Positions 1-31,207 of a stretch of DNA of 64,000 nt are shown here, piece after piece. The stretch's first letter is position 1. Each line of letters begins with the position of its first letter. The DNA is from Owenia fusiformis (lineage: Eukaryota; Annelida; Polychaeta; Sabellida; Oweniidae), in contig CAIIXF020000010.1 in assembly GCA_903813345.2 (NCBI GenBank), positions 23,913,740 through 23,977,739 on the forward strand, written 5' to 3'. A program made the translations under genes and the position numbers. The notes beneath the pieces are model-generated. The model was not told the origin of the DNA. It saw nothing but the letters and a program-made list of their open reading frames with translations, and searched no databases.

Positions 1-377
1 AGGGTCTTATAATGTTCAGGTATTCAGATGTTGTTAGAAATTCTCATTGCCAGTTTCTATTATGTAAGTATACATGTAATTAAAAAAGTGAAACTAAGAC
101 ATGTGGGAACATTAAAATGTTTTCTGGTCAAGCTTTACAAATACAAATAATAAGTCAATGCTTAGTATTTGATTTAATTCCCTGAACTTTTTTTAAATTA
201 TAGCAAAATTTTTCCCAGTCAGCAAAACAAAATTCCTAAGAAAAATCTTGGGACAATCTCCAGAACAATTTAGAAAACACTGTCCTTCTGGCACAATCTA
301 GAAAACAATGTCCCAAACCTAAAAAACAATAATGAGTACAATCTAGATAATACGAACATAAAAAACTACATGGAGAT

Positions 378-1103
378 TGTACAATCATTTGCACAACCTA
401 CATTGTGCAATCATTTGCACAACCTTGGCTGTATAATCATTTACACAACCTAGACTGCACAATTATTTGCACAACCTTGGCTGTATAATCATTTACACAA
501 CCTAGACTGCACAATCATTTGCACAACCTAGACTACACAATCATTTGCACAACCTAGACTGCATAATCATTTACACAACCTAGACTGCACAATCATTTGC
601 ACAACCTAGACTACACAATCATTTGCACAACTTAGACTGCACAATCATTTGCACAACCTAGACTGCATAATCATTTGCACAACCTAGACTGCACAATCAT
701 TTGCACAACCAAGACTGCATAATCATTTGCACAACCTAGACTGCACAATCATCTGCACAACCTAGACTGCACAATCATTTGCACAACTTAGACTGCACAA
801 TCATTTGCACAACCTAGACTGCATAATCATTTGCACAACCTAGACTGCACAATCATTTGCACAACCAAGACTGCATAATCATTTGCACAACCTAGACTGC
901 ACAATCATTTGCACAACCAAGACTGCATAATCATTTGCACAACCTAGACTGCATAATCATTTGCACAACCAAGACTGCATAATCATTTGCACAACCTAGA
1001 CTGCACAATCATATGCACAACCTAGACTGCACAATCATTTGCACAACCAAGACTGCATAATCATTTGCACAACCTAGACTGCACAATCATTTGCACAACC
1101 AAG
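378..1103. repeat. 26-bp satellite, about 28 copies
   Basis: Head-to-tail units of the type TGCACAATCATTTGCACAAC plus CTAGAC. Variants alternate between 'cctagac' and 'ccaagac' and between 'gcacaat' and 'gcataat'. The first few units (378-520) are the most diverged. Each unit carries two GCACAA words. The array sits just downstream of the last visible exon in gene orientation, so it is either intronic or 3' flanking. Confidence 0.95.
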
Positions 1104-1580
1104 AGAGCACAACTATTGGTGCTATCCAGCAAAGACATTTCTTGTCACAATCTAGAGGAAGAAAGATGGCGCCACACAACTAACCTATCAGAGCAACCTA
1201 ACAGGGCAACTTTCACATACATTTTGAATCTGAAAGAAATGAGACAACACAATTAAAAAACACAACTAAATACTGACTACCCTAAACATGGATACTATAT
1301 GTAACACATTAGCCATCATAAAACAAGGTGCAATACATGTATGTGTTTCTCATTTAAAATCAATAGATTTGAATTGGTCTTTCAATAATGGCTAATCAGT
1401 GTGACATACATTATGAACATCCTATTATATATGTGGCATCATTTCAGCAACAACTTTCCTCATTTATTTAGTATTTTTAGCAACATGATATTTTTAATGG
1501 CACACAACTCCAAAGTTCTATGTTTTACATGCGCCTCCTTGGCATTAACAAAGGAATTCTCAGTGGTATTTAAAGAGCCA

Positions 1581-1943: not shown

Positions 1944-3083
1944 CTTTGGCTATTAGTTGAATCCCCTGGGTACTGTTTATCAGATCTGCTCCCTTGGGTT
2001 TGTTCACTTTCCATGGAGTCTTGATAATCCAAAGGCTCCTTGTAACGATCACGATTTTGGTTACTATTGTAATTTTTATCACTGTAATCATCCATATTGG
2101 GATCATATAAATCCTTACTGTTTCTACTTGAATATTCATCTTTGTCATATATATTTTGGTCATAATCTCTATTAGGGTTTATATAATCGTCATAGAGATC
2201 ATGGTCTTGGAGTGAATCCTGCCTATAATGTGATTTGTTATGACTGTATTCATCTTGCATATTGGAACCCTCTATAAGTGAAGACCTCGAGAATGGAGTA
2301 TTATCTGAAGGATAGATGGCATTGCGATCCATAGTTGGAGTTGGAATATAATCCTCACGTGTACTTGGCTGACTCAAACGATCCTCACTACGTGCGCCAT
2401 ATGAGGAACCATTGTCTAACTCTCTGTCAGTCTCAGATCTTAAATCATCTATAGGGTTGGTCAAATATGACCCTACACCCCGTTTTTTCTTTGATCTAGC
2501 GAGTGGAAACATGCTATCATTATTTGGTGTAGAAGGGGAATCTGACATATAGGGATCACGTTTTTTCTTCATTAGATAAAATGGATCTTTGCTGTCACGC
2601 AATGGAGTCATTGGGGAGTCAACATTTGACTCAAGTCCACGGTCCCTCGAACTTGCAATACTATCCCCGCTACTTTTGGGAGGTATGCTTTCCTCTTCAA
2701 ATGAAGAGTTCCTAACTGCTGGGACACGTGGTAATTGGCGTCGCCTTCGACCTTTTGTTGAGTTTTTTGCATCCTTTTTACTAGCTCTACCATCACTAAA
2801 GAGTTCATTCTTGCTGCCACGGATACTATTGGTTCCTGATATTGTACTGATGCTGGCAGTCTCAATGGGAAGATCATTTACTATTCTCCAGTCCTCTTCA
2901 TCTAAACTACCAATCCCATAAAATCCCTTCTTCTTACGCTGCTTAGTTGCAGTACTTGCAATTGTTGATGATGTATCGCTCTGAGGAACAACATTCTCTT
3001 TTTGTTTATTTGAACGTCTTCGGCCAGATCTTTTGTGTCCTGAGTCATGGCGACTGGAACTACTTAATAACTCAGAAGAGTGA
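1944..3083 (-). CDS. Large exon of a disordered scaffold-like protein (RIM-like candidate), most downstream exon in window
   Basis: This open exon of 1140 nt encodes about 380 residues. It starts after a TATTTTAG acceptor and in the same phase-2 frame as the exons upstream. The protein is low in hydrophobics. Its first half is Ser/Lys/Arg-rich, with KQRKKKGFYGIG at about residues 48-59, EEDWRIVNDLP near 63-73 and the basic motif RRRRQLPRVP at about 113-122. Its second half is a run of Asp/Tyr/Asn/Arg (for example DDYINPNRDYDQN). No folded domain is visible. The end is uncertain. A donor-like CAAAG|GTTAAA at 1944 would keep the phase-2 pattern of the gene and send it past the left edge of the window. 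Otherwise the frame stops at 1913-1915 after the residues NYFLLMPS. A basic RQLPxxP stretch is what I recall from the RIM linker between C2A and C2B, which would place C2B further left. That identification is inference. Confidence 0.75.
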
Positions 3084-3530
3084 CTAAAATAAATACACTT
3101 CTATCATTTAGTTACTGAGAAAGGTTGATAAAAGAAAACAATATTTTATGGTTTTTAAAAATGGAATATGGTATTGTTAATTTATATGTTAATTCACTAT
3201 GTTATTTTAGAATTTCACAAAATGTTATTCACAAAACTCATAAATGAATTGCAATGCAATATTAAAAAATACATGCACATTGTTGTTTAGTTATTTTAAG
3301 TAACTCATTATGCTTATATTTCATTATTATTATTTTGTTGATATTAAATAACAAACATTAAATGGTAAAATTGCAAATTATGCTGCAGAATATGATGTCA
3401 CCTGTCTATATGCATACAATGTTTATATGACATCATTATACTATATGCAATTGCAAATGTCATCTATTGCTAACCCATCATCTTACAAGCATGCAATGTT
3501 TATATGACATCACTATATTACATGTACAGT

Positions 3531-3704
3531 GCTGTAGCCAGGGGGGGGGGGGGGGGGGTGATGGGCTTGATGCACCCTCCCCTGGTCAAATATTCTTTCA
3601 AAATCATGCAATTTTTCACCATTCTGAGCACTTTTGACCAAGTGTCAAAATTGTCAAAAGTAAACCCACCCTAGAATACTTTTTAAAAATCTGGCTACAG
3701 GCCT
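3531..3704. mobile_element. Short TIR element, copy 2, with an 18-bp poly-G run
   Basis: Same family as 1581-1755: it starts GCTGTAGCCAGG and ends CTGGCTACAGGCC. The internal G run (3541-3558) is unbroken and may be length-variable or a G-quadruplex former. It is intronic to the minus-strand gene. Confidence 0.7.
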
Positions 3705-4691
3705 GCATGTACATGTATATGCAAATGTCATCTAGTGCTAACCCATTATCTTACAAGCATGCAAGGTTTTCTTATGAAGCTAACATAGGATAATTGAAGC
3801 TCAAACATTTGTTCACAAACTTGTTATTATAATTACAAATACTTTGTTACTTGCTTATTAAGGCTTTAGAGCAAGCTATAGTATATGAAAGAATTCTCAT
3901 TACATACATGAGGGGTTTCAAATAAACCTGTGTAATGGAGTATACCTATGTATTGTAAATACAGAACCATGACTACAGGTTGGGATGCTAATACAAGAAT
4001 TGTTTGTGCGGGTCTTTTTCATATAATGCTGTATTTATGACAACCTTAAATATAGGATCAAAATACATTTCAACTAACCCAGCCCAAGGGATACTGTTTA
4101 ATTCATATTATAGAAGAATACAAGGAAGAATATTTGATAAACCACTAACTCATGAAATATTAATCCATGGAATGTGTGGTATGGACTTATTGCTTCACAA
4201 CATTCTCATCATTGTCTGTGCATGTGCATGGAAGCAGCAGCGTGCTACAAAGCAGAATAGTAACTCAAAATTATTGCAACATTTCAGTTAAATAATATTA
4301 AATCCAATGAAGTCATACTCTACAAATGATACACAGATAACTGTTCATCTAAAAATAAATAGACCAAACAAACAACTGAAACAAAACTACCAAAACTAAA
4401 TCAACAGTCCTAAACTGAAACAAAAGGGCTTAATTATAAAGCCATACTGAATAGCCACCAAAAGCAATAGATGGAGAAACTGCAAAAACATAATAATAAA
4501 ATCATATCTTTAAATCACATTGAACTGCAAAGAAATAATAATTCTTGAGGCAGTGAAGGTATTGCATGCAATGCAGCATAGTGTTCAAGTACAACAAAGC
4601 TACGGCTATATCTACTGCTGTATCCTAGTCTACACACAAAGATGCCACACAATAAAATGTACATGCTCATGTGTAACTAAATGACAAGCAC
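3705..4691. other. Intron sequence, no feature seen
   Basis: AT-rich sequence between two exons. A short degenerate repeat of 'gcaaatgtcatctattgctaa' type occurs at 3450-3480 and again near 3720-3745. Open frames here look like chance. Confidence 0.5.
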
Positions 4692-5063
4692 CTTTGTTGA
4701 CTCCTGTAACTATTATCAACGTAATCTTTGTATTCTTCTCGACTATATTCCTCACGTGGTGACTGCCTCCCACTGCGATCCATTCTGACCTGATCGACCC
4801 TTGTGTCACGATATTCTGGTTCTCGTGGTGATCTATCCCTATAGGGACCCCTATTGGTGGAATCAGAATCTGGGTATTCGTCTGGTTCCCTGTAGCGCTC
4901 TTGGTCTCTGTAGTCATTATATTCAAAGGACTCAGTGTGTTTGCTCTCACGAGGGTATCTAGTGTCAAATTCAAGTGAATCTTGACGATCTCCATAGCTG
5001 TCAAAAGATCCGCGACGTTCATACTCCCCATAAGACCTACGCATGTAATGATCTTCTTCCGGA
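4692..5063 (-). CDS. Symmetric cassette-type exon (372 nt), Arg/Tyr/Asp/Glu-rich
   Basis: The acceptor is ATTTTAG|T and the donor AG|GTGCTT. The exon contributes 1 + 371 nt, so it starts and ends in phase 2 and could be skipped without a frame change. The first codon, joined to the preceding AG, is Ser, giving SPEEDHYMRRSYGEYERR. The exon has repeated RD, REY and YRD words (for example REEYSREEYKDY) and ends in SYRSQQ. This composition suggests a disordered, charged linker. It lies 1.6 kb upstream of the last visible exon and 2.1 kb downstream of the 129-nt exon. The donor begins GTGC, not GTAAG or GTGAG, which suggests a weak, regulated site. Function is not recognisable from this exon alone. 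Confidence 0.8.
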
Positions 5064-5240
5064 CTAAAATAAAAAATCAAAATAATTAAATAACAATGAC
5101 TAAAAATGAAAAAAAAACATTAAACCTTGGAATACTGAAAAATAATTATCTTAACTCAGGCATTTCAGTTATAAATTTTTATGAAAAAAATATACATTAA
5201 TTATTTCACCAAATAATGTATAATGAAATAATATAGACTG

Positions 5241-5891
5241 AGGGGAGGCACCAAAAGTTCGATGTCGGATCGGAAACGAAATAAATCTAGTTTTGACTCT
5301 GAAACCCCCCCCCTCCACCCAAAAACTACATACCATGAAAGTTGATCGCTGACTTCCGGTTTGAGAATTTGAAAAGTTATTGCTAAATACGATCTAGTTT
5401 TTGTTAATTCCTATCATAATTTGCAACTTTTAACAACTATTGATAGAATAGAATCCATTGGAATGATCTTGACGAAGAAAGCATCAGGTAAAATCTTTAT
5501 TTTTAAACCATTCCAAGGCATTCTGAGTCGAAATTGCCAAAAGTTTGAAATGTTGAAATTTGTCGGATAGCAAACTGAAATGGGTTTGAACCCCCTCCCC
5601 CTAACTAGATTTATTTACAAAGTTGTTGATTTTCTTTCTCAGAGATATTTATTTTTCTTTTTGACGTTTCGTAGGATGTCCATCCTACTTCTTCAGAAAT
5701 AAAATTATATTTGAATCAAACTGAAATAATTAATTATTACATAACAATGAGACAAATAGCAACCGTTACTATAAAATAAATATCTCTGAGAAAGAAAATC
5801 AACAACTTTGTACATTACTACCAGAGAGATGAAAATTCATAGTAGATTTATTTAGTTTTGTATCCGACATCGAACTTTTGATGCCTCCCCT
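5241..5891. mobile_element. TIR element (about 650 bp) carrying a nested foldback
   Basis: The ends AGGGGAGGCACCAAAAGTTC and its inverted partner (about 5842-5891) match over roughly 45 bp. The interior has no intact gene. A second, foldback element is inserted at 5617-5811, next to the right end. It lies in the intron between the 372-nt and 129-nt exons. Confidence 0.75.
5617..5811. mobile_element. Foldback element, long form
   Basis: The arms ACAAAGTTGTTGATTTTCTT and its complement enclose a loop with GACGTTTCGTAGGATG followed by CATCCTACTTCTTC. A GACGTTTCG-plus-hairpin motif is known at the ends of some retroelements such as Penelope-like elements, so this may be a terminal fragment. That is inference. 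The same flank (TACATTACTACCAGAGAGATG) follows both copies in the window. Confidence 0.7.
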
Positions 5892-7189
5892 TATAATACT
5901 ATTGTACACTTGACAGATATAAGTCCACATGAATTTGCAGGAAACGCTAATGCAATGAGAGGAGCAATGTTCGAAAATGATTCAATGATCCTATACTAAT
6001 AGACAACGCCAATCATGCAAATAAGGAACTTAGTTCTTTGAACATATCTTAATAGCTACCTTAACAGAATTTTGTTTTTTGAAAAATGTACCCAAATCTC
6101 AAAATAATATACACAGCAGTTTTTCTGCAATAATACAATAAATTGTAATGCTGCAGGTTCTCGAAGATTATGAGTGAAATTTATGAATTCAAAAATCATG
6201 ATTTTAGGAATGACAGGAGCTCATAGCTGCCATCTATTGATATTCTGAACCGTTCACAACTAAATATGTAAAATGATGTATTTATTCTAACTTGCATATT
6301 CTGTATCATTAGGCACAGTGTATCATGTTATATTTCTAAAAGGAAATGCCCCTGACATAGCCAGCCCTGACATAGCCGGCCCTATAGCCAGGATCTAAAA
6401 AGTGAGGCAAAATTAGGCTAAAAGAGATGTCATTCTAACAATTGACTTCACCACCATACTTAGAGGTAAACCTGCCTCATATCAAACTTTGCCCACGTTA
6501 TTCCTTTATTCTTATTTCAATGACCCCCTCCACTGTGCCAAAATGATGCTAACTGATGACATCACAATACTGTAAAGAAAGTGGCATCTAACTGAACCTA
6601 AAAGAACTATGACATGTATTATAAAAATAAAGAAGCTGAAATAGAGTTGTAAATAATCAAAAAATAATAACATTATTTATACTAAATTGTGATCCAATTT
6701 GTGATTTTAGTAAAGAATGGTTTCTAAAATATGATAATGCATTAATTTTGTTAATACAGTCATGCATGTCCTATGGGAGGGATACTGGATTGTAATGGTA
6801 AATGAAACATGTGTCACAAAACTACAAAAACTGAAATCACAAATGGATGCTTAATTATGACAATAGAGGTGGTGGTATTACCATATAGGCAAGCTGAAAG
6901 TTTCAAAATTAAATTAGAATAACATTTTAAAGGATAAGAAAAAACTAATATCACTGTAAAGTTTGCCATTTTACGATTGGTCAAAGGATAAAGAAAATAC
7001 ATGTAATGACTTTTTATTTTCAATCGTCTATTTTGCACCTTTCAAAACCATCAAAAATTGATAAGAGAATATATGATATCCCAACCTCTTTTGTCCTTGC
7101 CTCAAATTAATGACAAAATATCAAGGGAACATATTGATGCCTATGCATAGTATGCAGCATGGATAGGAAACAATGTAAGGTGGCAGCAC

Positions 7190-7318
7190 CTGAGTTGAGT
7201 GGGCGAGTAGTCTGGGTTGAGATCAATGGGATTCATGTGTGTCTCGAAAGCATCCTCTACTCCAAGGATAGATGGCACTGAACCTCTACGGGAATAATCT
7301 GGATCGCTTGGTTCCGGG
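7190..7318 (-). CDS. Symmetric exon (129 nt) of the same gene
   Basis: The acceptor is TATGGCAG|C and the donor AG|GTGCTG. The phase is 2 at both ends. It encodes SPEPSDPDYSRRGSVPSI followed by LGVEDAFETHMNPIDLNPDY and SPTQL. This is the least repetitive exon of the set. The LGVEDAFETHMNP stretch looks like a conserved short linear motif rather than random disorder. The RRGSVP part resembles a basophilic kinase site (R-R-x-S type), which is inference. It lies 186 bp downstream of the 66-nt exon, the shortest intron in the gene. Confidence 0.8.
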
Positions 7319-7504
7319 CTGCCATAGAAGAAAAAGCATTAAAACCAAGCCTTACATTTAACCAAAATCTGATAAACATCTTTGCAATTGATCTGATATA
7401 TTAATGTTCTTAAATCAGAATTTCTGTACTGCAATGTACAAACTTTGACAATTAATGTTTAATTTGAGATAAATGTGTGCATTAAAGTAAAGATGGCGCT
7501 GCAC

Positions 7505-7570
7505 CTTATTTCCTGTGCGGAGAAATAGTTAGCTGGAGTGTAGTAGTCCTGTGAGGTCTGCTGACTCTGA
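7505..7570 (-). CDS. Short symmetric exon (66 nt), Gln/Ser/Tyr-rich
   Basis: The acceptor is GCTCTAG|T and the donor AG|GTGCAG. The phase is 2 at both ends. The peptide is SQSQQTSQDYYTPANYFS AQEI with no break. Assignment rests on the frame, the acceptor, the Ser junction codon and its place between two similar exons. The donor is poor, so optional inclusion is likely. A short intron (7319-7504) separates it from the next exon. Confidence 0.65.
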
Positions 7571-7879
7571 CTAGAGCTTAAAATAATAAATACAGAACAT
7601 TATTTTCAGGTGGGCAAAGGGAGTTATAGGCTAGAGGGAGTACAGGATTTGACCCTTTAACCCAAAATTATTGAAAAATCATCAAGTTCTCATAATTTTT
7701 TGTGATAGTTTCGAGAATTGGTAGCTATGTGGTTAACTAAATTGAACACAAATTTGTCTTAAGTCAGCCATAAAAAAATTCTGAAAAAATATATATTGTC
7801 TATTTAATGGTCATCTTTTGAATGGTAACATTTTATTTGAAAAATACACAACTACTTTTTTATATATTGTTTCAAGAAA

Positions 7880-8020
7880 ACTCATTCGACAATTATTTTG
7901 TTCTGAGTACCATATGTTTGGAAAAAAATGAAACATCTTTCAGAACCACGTTGGAACAAACTGACATATACACAATGTTTTTAGGTCTCTCAATTTTGTA
8001 ATTACACAAATAGTTCACTC
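7880..8020. repeat. Copy of a dispersed repeat shared with 54290-54540
   Basis: The stretch with 'gaaacatctttcagaacc' and 'taggtctctcaattttgtaa' matches, with substitutions, sequence at 54290-54540 in the inverse orientation. The latter lies in a 2.3-kb TIR element, so this may be a diverged fragment of the same family. The rest of 7640-8600 is AT-rich with no other clear signal. Confidence 0.5.
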
Positions 8021-8879
8021 AAAGAACTATCTTGTTAATGAAATAAAAGGTATACTTTAATTTTATCTATTTAGGGGGTATTTGTGTTTATTTTGTTATA
8101 CTACTAAAAAACAAAAATTGTTTACTAAAACAATTATATAAAATATAATAAATAATAATAAATAATTTTTACTTTAATTGTTGTCAATGGTCATCGATGA
8201 CCATTATATAAAGGATGTGTTGTGTTGAATGTTGAATTTAGTTCACCAATACTTTCTTAACATTTATGGAAATTTTCTCTTCCCCATTAAAAAACCTTGA
8301 AAAAACATTTTATCCACTCATCAATCATATCCTTTCTCAAAAAGAGACCTATTCATGATTTTTCAAATATTTTATGTTCTGGTCTTCAAAATCCTTTTTT
8401 CGCTATTAAATTCTTTGGCCAAAATTCTCAGGGAAAGCAATCTATAAAGGAAAATTATTTAAAAAAAGATTTTGTACCCTGTTCCAATTCAGAGCTAATT
8501 TATAAAAATCATATATATTTTATTAGATCTTACAATCCAAAATGCTAGATAAACATTTGTACAATATAATGTAATATCTTTTTCTCTCAAAAACATGTGC
8601 ATAAAGGTAAATGAATGTTCAATGCTTTAAGAAACCACACTTTTGATGACTTGCCTAAGAAATTTATTAAGTTCATTCAAAGACAATATTATATGGACAT
8701 CTATATCACTTTATACATGCATGTACATACATGTATCATGAAAACAGATAAAAACATCAAAGGTATTAAATAAAAATTGCTGCACTTTAAACAATAGCAT
8801 CAGACAAACGATTAAATCAATATTCAAGCGATAGACCATAGAAATAAATTTGGCAAACTGTCAGAAACAACATTTAGGC

Positions 8880-9012
8880 ACAAAGTTGTTGATTTTCTTT
8901 CTCAGAGATATTTCTTTTTCTTTTTGACGTTTCGTAGGATGCCCAAAAAGAAAAACGTAGAAACGTCAAAAAGAAAAATAAATATCTCTGAGAAAGAAAA
9001 TCAACAACTTTG
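8880..9012. mobile_element. Foldback element, short form
   Basis: Same arms as 5617-5811 but with most of the loop missing, so the two arms (about 60 bp each, nearly perfect complements) almost touch. It would extrude as a hairpin. It is followed by the same TACATTACTACCAGAGAGATG flank. Confidence 0.8.
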
Positions 9013-9189
9013 TACATTACTACCAGAGAGATGAACATTCATAGAAACATTTAGGCAGAAAGTTTAAAGGCATACACAGGTGACAACTATCAGCACAAAT
9101 CAAAAGATTTGAGACATGCAAATGAAAAGAGAAAGCATGCTAATATAGCTCTACCTGTTCGAGAACAACTTCTACCACAATGACCTAAA

Positions 9190-9319
9190 ACAATGTCTGT
9201 GGTTCCACTCTATTGCTCTGTAATATTTGAATACAATGTCTGTGGTTCCACTCTATTGCTCTGTAATATTTGAATACAATGTCTGTGGTTCCACTCTATT
9301 GCTCTGTAATATTTGAATG
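9190..9319. repeat. 43-bp tandem repeat, three copies
   Basis: Units based on CAATGTCTGTGGTTCCACTC are nearly identical, so the duplication is recent. It lies 300 bp downstream (in gene sense) of the 138-nt exon. Confidence 0.9.
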
Positions 9320-9623
9320 AAGTGTCCGATTCTATAACATTTCTATTCAATTGTTGACAACACACCTGTTGACTTTACTCATTGAATATTCATTTCTTTT
9401 CGACTTTATTTTGTATTTCAAACATGGCTATTTTAAGTAAAATTAGATTGAATAAAGACAGTACATATAAGAAGGATGTGAGCATTTTCAAATCAACTTG
9501 CCACACAAGGACAGTAGCATACTCCTTAAAAGTCAAAAATAAAAGGGTCAATGCAATACCACATGGTACATTCAAGGGTCACAAATGCACAGCGAAACAA
9601 CTATAGCATGCTTAGAGTAGCAC

Positions 9624-9761
9624 CTTAGTCTGTCGGTAGGAGGATAATCATCACTATGGCGATCATAAATATCAGGATCATCTTCTCCATAGTAATCGTT
9701 ATAACGATAGTCGTCATGATAATGGGTCCCATGTCTGTTGTCTGGTTGATTATAAACAGGA
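9624..9761 (-). CDS. Symmetric exon (138 nt), Asp/Tyr/His-rich
   Basis: The acceptor is TTTTTGTAG|T and the donor AG|GTGCTA. The phase is 2 at both ends. It encodes SPVYNQPDNRHGTHYHDDYR, then YNDYYGEDDPDIYDRHSDDY and PPTDRL. The many Asp-Tyr pairs match the other exons of this gene. The predicted peptide is acidic and disordered, and no domain is seen. Confidence 0.75.
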
Positions 9762-10988
9762 CTACAAAAACAAAATTTAAAATAAATGTTCACCAAAATT
9801 ATGAATGAAGATTCTGCCACCAGCTTTGTCTTTCAGTTAAGAACAACTACACAGGTATCAATACTACAACATACAGCAAATTTTTGGTGGCATCATGAGC
9901 AAGGCACCTCAGTCTTATATATTTATAGACACTTGCATTATCTATGATACCATGAACAAACTCATGGTATGATCGGGTCTGGATGATGGCACCCATGAAC
10001 AACATATAAGAAATTAAAATTAACTTCCACCATGATTGTGTTTAAGTACACAAAGAGTAGAACCTGATGTAGTTACACAAAGAGATTAACAGATGGTATA
10101 ACATAACATATATTTATGAACCCAAACCACATTAACTTAATTATTGAGTAATATCATCCTAGATGTCAATTAAGTGTTAGAATTGTTAAAGTGAGCAGAA
10201 ATAGAAAACAATCTAGGGCCAGTTGTTTAAGGAATTTCTTTGTTGACTTTAATACAGATGTTCAAACAAGGTTCAATATTTGGGAAATTTTCATCTGAAA
10301 ATATTATAATGATTGATTCAGAGTAGGCCCCATAACAGATGTAAAATATTACCATAATGCCACTAAATATGCTAAATATGAATTAGTTGATTGCTCAGTC
10401 TCAAAAGCAAAGGAGGAATTACCCAGCATCATTTGAAGACTTTTAAAAAATATTATCATAATCCACTGGTGTGTTCATCTGAAACATTTTCATTTATGAG
10501 CCAAACAATTAATTACATTAGCAACAAATACATATAATATCAGTTTCAACTTCATCAAACTCAAGGTTATATACAAATTAGCCCGAATCCATCCAAGAGC
10601 ACCTCTACTGTATCATTATACAGTGCTTTTAGATCTTAAAAAGAGTGATTAGAGTGAACAAATTAGGCAGAAAAATACTCAGTGGTCTACTTCTTTAGAA
10701 TACAATTGCCAAATATGGTCTGATGCTCCATGAATCGACTGCCCTTTTATGAATCATTTTAAACTTTTGCGAAAAGTGAAAAAGTGATGAGACTGAAAAG
10801 ATGAAAAATGTTGGCAATGAAAATGAAGAAAGAAACTTTTGAAAAAGAAAGGTCAACAAAAAAGGGATATTTTAATTCTAATTGATGGATACAACTGATT
10901 CACATTTTTCCCACAGAAGCTTTAAATTCCTGCCACCATTACTGGCCCTAGCTTGTATTTGGATTAACACCTTTAGTCATACACATAC
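9762..10988. other. Intron sequence, no feature seen
   Basis: AT-rich intron between the 138-nt and 54-nt exons. I found no repeats or convincing exons. Confidence 0.5.
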
Positions 10989-11042
10989 CTGAATTCTTGG
11001 GGTTGCTTCTGGGGAGGGGGTGCAGTGCTGTAGTCACTGGGA
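10989..11042 (-). CDS. Micro-exon (54 nt), Pro/Gln-rich
   Basis: The acceptor is CAATTTCAG|T and the donor AG|GTATGT, the best donor among the downstream exons. The phase is 2 at both ends. It encodes SPSDYSTAPPPQKQPQEF. The SPxDY opening matches the other exons of the set, and the PPPQKQPQ part could be an SH3-type or profilin-type ligand, though that is only a guess. At 18 codons it is a classical size for a neural micro-exon. Confidence 0.7.
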
Positions 11043-12540: not shown

Positions 12541-12832
12541 CTGTCATTTGCATAGTTCTGTGGGGGTCTACTATTGTAATACAAGGGTTCTGAGTCTGTA
12601 TCACTCCGTGGTTGATGATATGGACTTTCCTGGTTGTCATAGTAACCATGTTCTCGATCATATTCTCGATCCATTGGATCGTAATTAAAATCTCTTGAAT
12701 CCCCACTCTCCTCACGAGTAATGTTCCTAGCATACGGGTGTTCACTACGGAACTGATGTGCAGAGCTGTTGTGTTGATGGTTGGTAGGGTAATTGATGTC
12801 ACTTGTATAATCACTGTCCTCTGACATACCAG
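12541..12832 (-). CDS. Exon (292 nt), Asp/Tyr/His/Asn-rich
   Basis: The acceptor is TGTTACAG|CT and the donor AG|GTTGGT. It takes two bases to finish the codon begun in the 46-nt exon (T+CT = Ser) and ends in phase 2, so it is the one asymmetric exon that switches the gene into the phase-2 block. It encodes SGMSEDSDYTSDINYPTN near its start and SDTDSEPLYYNSRPPQNY near its end. The serine-acid clusters (SEDSDYTSD, SDTDSE) look like casein-kinase-2-type sites, which is inference. Just upstream in the intron (12838-12935) is a run of short degenerate repeats based on ACATAGAA. Confidence 0.75.
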
Positions 12833-17635: not shown

Positions 17636-17681
17636 ATTGTGAATATGTTGGCCTCCTATGCTGCTCCTTGATGGTCATCAT
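17636..17681 (-). CDS. Micro-exon (46 nt)
   Basis: The acceptor is TTTTTCTTGCAG and the donor AAT|GTAAGT, both strong. It encodes MMTIKEQHRRPTYSQ and ends with one base of a split codon. The frame agrees with the exons on both sides. The IKEQH word followed by a Pro/Thr/Ser stretch recalls IKEEH in the N-terminal Rab-binding region of vertebrate RIM2, but the match is short and recalled from memory. An internal ATG pair at its 5' end could also serve as a start for a shorter isoform; this cannot be judged here. Confidence 0.65.
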
Positions 17682-31136: not shown

Positions 31137-31207
31137 CTCTTGATCCATGATGTTGTTGAGGACCTCAAGTTTATTCTGCAGTTCAGCAGCTTCTGACTCT
31201 GGTAAAT
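31137..31207 (-). CDS. Upstream exon (71 nt), helical/coiled segment
   Basis: The acceptor is TGTGTTCCAG and the donor GAG|GTAGGT. Two bases complete a codon from an exon outside the visible set, then 23 codons read LPESEAAELQNKLEVLNN IMDQE. The spacing of Leu, Ile and Val fits an amphipathic helix, the only ordered-looking stretch in the visible protein. The next exon lies 13.5 kb downstream, and no earlier exon could be found up to the right edge, so the 5' part of the gene is either in very short exons I missed or outside the window. Confidence 0.6.

Follow-up and report, generated by a model that had tools for sequence, protein, structure and literature searches.

UNC-13 readies the vesicles of nerve endings for release, and its N-terminal part sets the priming site relative to calcium channels as well as the readiness of release. 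In Caenorhabditis elegans, the N-terminus of UNC-13L influences release probability as well as positioning the protein at the active zone (PMC3821175), tight and loose coupling are described for UNC-13L and UNC-13S (PMC10023163), and deletion of the X region enhances release, indicating that X restrains it (PMC11991699). The Unc13A and Unc13B forms of Drosophila differ in their N-termini (PMC8762327). Additionally, C. elegans unc-13 has a 9-nt cassette exon between the calmodulin site and C1, which MBL-1 and EXC-7 switch between neuron types via the downstream intron (PMC12287369). UNC-13 is already known to vary through cassettes and promoters; the exons reported here bear on how release might be graded more finely than by the main long and short isoforms. 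These exons form a run of symmetric phase-2 exons in the UNC-13 gene of the annelid Owenia fusiformis, within a 64,000-nt stretch of contig CAIIXF020000010.1 (C10:23913740-23977739) in assembly GCA_903813345.2 (498 Mb, 525 contigs). We refer to this whole stretch as the window; coordinates without the prefix C10 are window positions, and all linker exons are on the minus strand.

Six exons of the window, numbered E1 to E6 in transcript order, encode most of the predicted linker that joins C2A to the calmodulin site, and a seventh, E7, lies ~2 kb beyond the window. The linker corresponds to part of the X region of C. elegans UNC-13L, an unstructured region that separates C2A from C1 and contains the calmodulin site, in a protein whose N-terminal isoforms tune release (PMC11991699, PMC3821175, PMC10023163). 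Unlike the Owenia exon run, UNC-13L and UNC-13S are reported to arise from different promoters together with alternative splicing (PMC3821175). A second parallel is the unc-13 microexon of C. elegans and Drosophila, which has a counterpart at the same position in mammalian Unc13c and is an in-frame linker cassette with neuron-type regulation in C. elegans (PMC12287369). However, the microexon is 9 or 6 nt long and lies beyond the calmodulin site, whereas the Owenia candidates are 54 to 1140 nt long and lie on the side between C2A and that site. Among the matches listed by our text searches of an open-access subset of the literature on UNC-13 splicing and isoforms, there was no described array of symmetric phase-2 linker exons. 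We consider it most likely, with a probability of about 0.6, that at least some of the seven exons that make up this linker are regulated cassettes that tune it.

Identity of the host gene

A tblastn search with a Munc13-1 query gave, on the minus strand of C10, the domain order C2A, calmodulin-site segment, C1, C2B, MUN and C2C. The C2A domain lies upstream in three exons with 52-70% identity to that of Munc13-1 (E 2e-10 to 7e-8), for which the query sequence was confirmed against PDB 2CJS and 2CJT. Past the low end of the window, C2-domain matches are found on the same strand along with C1 and a series of MUN exons. In an exon located 5 kb beyond the window, a further match to the Munc13-1 query at C10:23908673-23908584 (53% identity over 30 residues, E 0.004) covers what we take to be the putative calmodulin-binding segment of Munc13-1. 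Because C2A is found upstream and the calmodulin site, C1, C2B, MUN and C2C follow downstream in order, the gene, as judged by its predicted domains, is UNC-13/Munc13 in its long, C2A-containing form. The chosen exons have compatible phases, such that the C2A, linker and C1 exons could be joined in one predicted transcript. RIM was also considered as the host gene, but no PDZ or FYVE_2 match was listed near the window, and the presence of C1 and MUN decided for UNC-13. The suggestion in the preliminary description that neural tissue would be the place to look for transcripts fits a gene of this identity.

The order C2A, linker, calmodulin site and C1 is the same as that described for the N-terminal region of Munc13-1 and ubMunc13-2 (PMC8762327). 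Unlike the flanking domains, the linker itself has no counterpart that tblastn with Munc13-1 could detect, as zero matches at E<=1 fell between C2A and the calmodulin-site segment.

The run of symmetric phase-2 exons

E1 (10989..11042, 54 nt), E2 (9624..9761, 138 nt), E3 (7505..7570, 66 nt), E4 (7190..7318, 129 nt), E5 (4692..5063, 372 nt) and E6 (1944..3083, 1140 nt) are all preceded by AG and followed by GT, have lengths divisible by three and contain zero stops in the phase-2 frame. All six begin one base into a codon and end in AG on the minus strand, exactly as first described. That description stopped at six exons; these are all present, but the run is longer, with E7 (C10:23911721-23911638, outside the window, 84 nt), another symmetric phase-2 exon recovered by exon chains, as its seventh member. 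The run is opened by the first large linker exon (12541..12832, 292 nt, phase 1 to 2), which exon chains also support, and it leads into the calmodulin-site exon placed by an exon chain at C10:23908737-23908590, outside the window.

Since each exon ends in AG and the next starts with T or C, a serine codon is formed at the entry junction of every one of the six exons (6/6; first base T in five and C in one), in agreement with the AGT or AGC serines proposed at the outset. At the exit of the run, the calmodulin-site exon is entered in phase 2 via AG/G, giving Arg and not Ser. The serine was said to be usually followed by proline, and this holds for E1, E2, E4 and E5, or 4/6 exons (5/7 with E7), whereas E3 starts with Ser-Gln and E6 with Ser-His. 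Among 106 other serines of the linker and the preceding exon, only seven are followed by proline (binomial P about 2e-5), a value that is optimistic because the feature had been noticed before testing. A tandem acceptor at 7576, 6 nt upstream of E3, would extend the exon to 72 nt with phase and serine unchanged.

The run amounts to eight consecutive phase-2 introns. Given the 37 introns of the gene in our list, 15 of them phase 2, a run of at least eight arose in 0.4% of 100,000 shuffles (P=0.004); without E2 the value is 0.009, and without both E2 and E3 it is 0.024. The list counts each tandem exon pair once and omits the last exon and uncertain exons near the MUN end; among control introns, with both members of two tandem exon pairs counted, 8/31 are phase 2. 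When each of the 128 possible combinations of the seven exons was joined between exon 12832-12541 and the calmodulin-site exon, none (0/128) contained a stop or a frameshift, the entry serine was kept whichever exon preceded, and 112 distinct lengths resulted, ranging from 0 to 661 residues. The compatibility with skipping proposed for the six exons therefore extends to all seven.

Together the seven exons encode 661 residues, of which 15.3% are Ser, 12.3% Asp, 9.7% Arg, 8.2% Pro and 7.7% Tyr. Pfam searches with E2, E4, E5, E6 and the preceding exon returned nothing above the cut-off, the one match being DUF1139 (E 0.16), below it. The composition is disorder-like, as had been claimed, and because the X region of C. 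elegans is likewise described as unstructured (PMC11991699), the linker is probably disordered.

Whether each of the exons is coding was assessed with exon chains and composition tests. The first exon chain, for which the codon table was trained partly on linker exons, recovers all six window exons (E3 from 7576), three exons upstream of them, E7 and the calmodulin-site exon. The chains contain many spurious exons in long introns, and we kept only those with homology, a high score or phase continuity. In repeat chains, run at three penalties with codon scores from domain exons only, E1, E4, E5, E6 and E7 are kept at every penalty. Using the same domain-trained codon score, P is 0.003 for E1, 0.24 for E2, 0.005 for E3, 0.043 for E4 and 0.045 for E7, and the corresponding values for synonymous codons alone are weak (0.048, 0.605, 0.020, 0.087 and 0.420). 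E5 and E6 are near null on the synonymous-codon score and one to two standard deviations per 60 codons above null on the full score; searched against the genome at E<=10, their proteins match only themselves. A leave-one-out test was also applied to the five shorter exons (E1 to E4 and E7), in which each was scored after training on the remaining linker exons and compared with 1000 stop-free intron stretches. This gave P values of 0.002 for E1, 0.003 for E3 and 0.008 for E4, and none of the 1000 stretches (0/1000) reached E2 or E7, although the score also captures amino-acid likeness. On the gene strand of the 17.5-kb interval, seven candidates of the phase 2-to-2 class score at least 17, namely E1, E3 to E7 and a candidate at 1229-1185 that we rejected, but not E2; the other eight phase classes have two to four candidates each, and on the opposite strand there are zero candidates of any phase class at that score.

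The domain-trained chains take E2 at none of the three penalties, and E3 (as 7576-7505) only at the lowest, which counts against the regulated-cassette reading. The reality of E2 and E3 depends on the composition test used. The lowest-penalty chain enters the calmodulin-site exon via another acceptor, in phase 0, whereas the two higher penalties keep phase 2.

The rejected candidate (1229-1185, 45 nt, phase 2 to 2, Arg start) was picked by the first exon chain and at two of the three penalties in the domain-trained chains. Its support as coding sequence is weak (P 0.14 and 0.24), it adjoins a 26-nt tandem repeat, and it is excluded from every count of accepted exons. Window positions 244-1245 are occupied by tandem repeats with a period of 26 nt.

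Upstream of the run, exon chains place two smaller exons of the gene on the same strand: a 46-nt exon at 17636..17681 (phase 0 to 1; acceptor 12.3 and donor 7.8 bits) and, following the C2A exons, a 71-nt exon at 31137..31207 (phase 1 to 0) with a high chain score. By eye, the translation of the latter resembles the post-C2A segment of Munc13-1.

Splice sites and the case for skipping

Splice sites of the seven linker exons were scored against those of 32 other exons of the gene that served as controls, using generic matrices that were not trained on Owenia fusiformis. With these matrices, median donor strength is 5.5 bits for the linker exons and 8.3 bits for the controls (P=0.025), median acceptor strength is 4.7 and 8.1 bits, respectively (P=0.018), and the sum of donor and acceptor differs at P=0.006. 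E6 is weak at both sites. Donors of 6.1 bits or less are found in 5/7 linker exons compared to 3/32 controls, and the donors of E2, E3, E4 and E5 begin GTGC, a form seen in 4/7 linker exons and 0/32 controls (Fisher P=0.0004). Weak splice sites and GTGC donors fit regulated skipping. Alternatively spliced exons in human are described as enriched for disorder (PMC4838654).

Regulated skipping of the linker exons could work as follows. Weak and partly unusual splice sites would let the exons be skipped cell by cell, which would alter the length and composition of the linker while leaving C2A and the release machinery unaffected. The linker has the C2A anchor on one side and the C1-C2B-MUN priming part on the other, so the choice of exons would probably adjust both the reach of UNC-13 and the restraint that the linker exerts on release. 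With seven frame-neutral exons, the linker could vary naturally in length, and one gene could in principle yield many tether lengths. We infer the skipping, its regulator and its effect. The idea of a modular set for many linker lengths, put forward for these exons from the start, is borne out in its frame-neutral subsets and disorder-like linker, but not in the duplication of a founding exon that accompanied it.

The alternative is that all linker exons are constitutive, and that their phase-2 symmetry is an inherited and functionally silent feature of a disordered region. The strong donors of E1 and E7 (10.3 and 10.8 bits) would be expected if so, and for human exons symmetry is reported to lose most of its association with disorder once collagen genes are taken out, with a modest preference remaining (PMC4838654). 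Weak splice sites also occur in constitutive exons, the matrices are generic, and n=7. Likewise, a screen for splicing-factor motifs (eight motifs in four windows, 32 tests) does little for regulation: the single test to survive correction is for upstream T-runs (P=0.001), a usual part of acceptors, while downstream YGCY (0.006), TGTGTG (0.002) and GCATG (0.047) all fail. All of these points count against regulated cassettes. Nevertheless, the excess of donors at or below 6.1 bits and the four GTGC donors are at odds with purely constitutive exons, as is the presence of a regulated cassette in the neighbouring linker within the same gene family (PMC12287369). We therefore regard constitutive inclusion of every exon as somewhat unlikely, and retain regulated cassettes as the preferred reading.

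A more elaborate form of the cassette reading would be a combinatorial tether with up to 128 forms, in which splicing sets both the length of the linker and its number of proline-directed phosphorylation sites, given that most modules carry a junction Ser-Pro, and in which the four consecutive GTGC donors act as a shared control point, possibly for muscleblind. Ser-Pro is described as a motif preferred by ERK1/2, GSK-3 and Cdk5 (PMC4894758), so the junction sites might, speculatively, be phosphorylated. A tether of this kind is quite improbable.

Origin of the exon run and other features of the locus

The exons were also proposed to descend by duplication from a founding symmetric exon. The common phase, the AG end and the Ser-Pro start of the exons are what tandem duplication would leave behind, and the exons are more alike in register over their first 12 and their last 30 bases than control sets are (P<0.001 each), although this comparison is confounded because the control exons differ in phase. 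At the DNA level, at least six of 21 pairs, each exon being taken with 80 nt on either side, have a shuffle P of 0.04 or less. However, four of the five DNA matches that were inspected are out of register, and the starts of the introns are less alike than in controls. Among 28 protein pairs (the seven exons and the preceding exon), the best has a shuffle P of 0.013, and similarity anchored at the exon start has a P of 0.235. No recognisable in-register similarity runs through the array, and the proposal is unsupported overall at both the protein and the DNA level. The one pair that stands apart is E4 and E7, which share a short, near-register intron match in which 13 bases are identical, lying about 75 nt upstream in each case; this pair may therefore stem from an old duplication. 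Tandem duplication as the origin of the run as a whole is very unlikely.

Another route, compatible with either constitutive or regulated use of the exons, is that one or a few long exons were cut by intron gains at AG/T within Ser-Pro codons; the shared phase and the Ser-Pro junctions would then need no exon duplication. The frequency of Ser-Pro at the junctions is in keeping with this, with the caveat that the feature was chosen post hoc, as are the little similarity among the exons and the fact that E6 is still 1140 nt long. On the other hand, the eight introns do not look like one family. An introner-like intron family was rejected, as blastn among the eight introns matched two pairs only (I2-I4 and I5-I6), and both matches are repeat-like. 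Intron gain of this kind appears unlikely. Two related inverted-repeat elements, 91-99% alike in their aligned parts and mobile-element-like, lie in introns at window positions 5603-5842 and 8866-9044.

Elsewhere in the gene, several other exons are present in two copies. The first C2B exon is found at C10:23808172-23808031 and 23806431-23806290 (142 nt each, phase 1 to 2), and because the two copies together would shift the frame they look mutually exclusive. The second C2B exon is also duplicated, at C10:23804045-23803918 and 23803080-23802953 (128 nt each, phase 2 to 1), with differences located mainly after WDED. A late MUN exon is found at C10:23787165-23786937 and again at about 23786860-23786635; the copies are 76 nt apart, both end in AGG/gtaatt, and they are candidate mutually exclusive exons. 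A literature search found no paper on tandem exon duplication in Unc13. Within the intron directly after the second C2A exon, two weak tblastn matches (C10:23999885-23999829 and 23999717-23999601; E 0.23 and 0.35) look like partial repeats of that exon. Finally, a short UNC-13 form might start with a 1003-nt open stretch at C10:23864866-23863864, a candidate alternative first exon that has an early ATG and a phase-0 end fitting the exon at C10:23826327.

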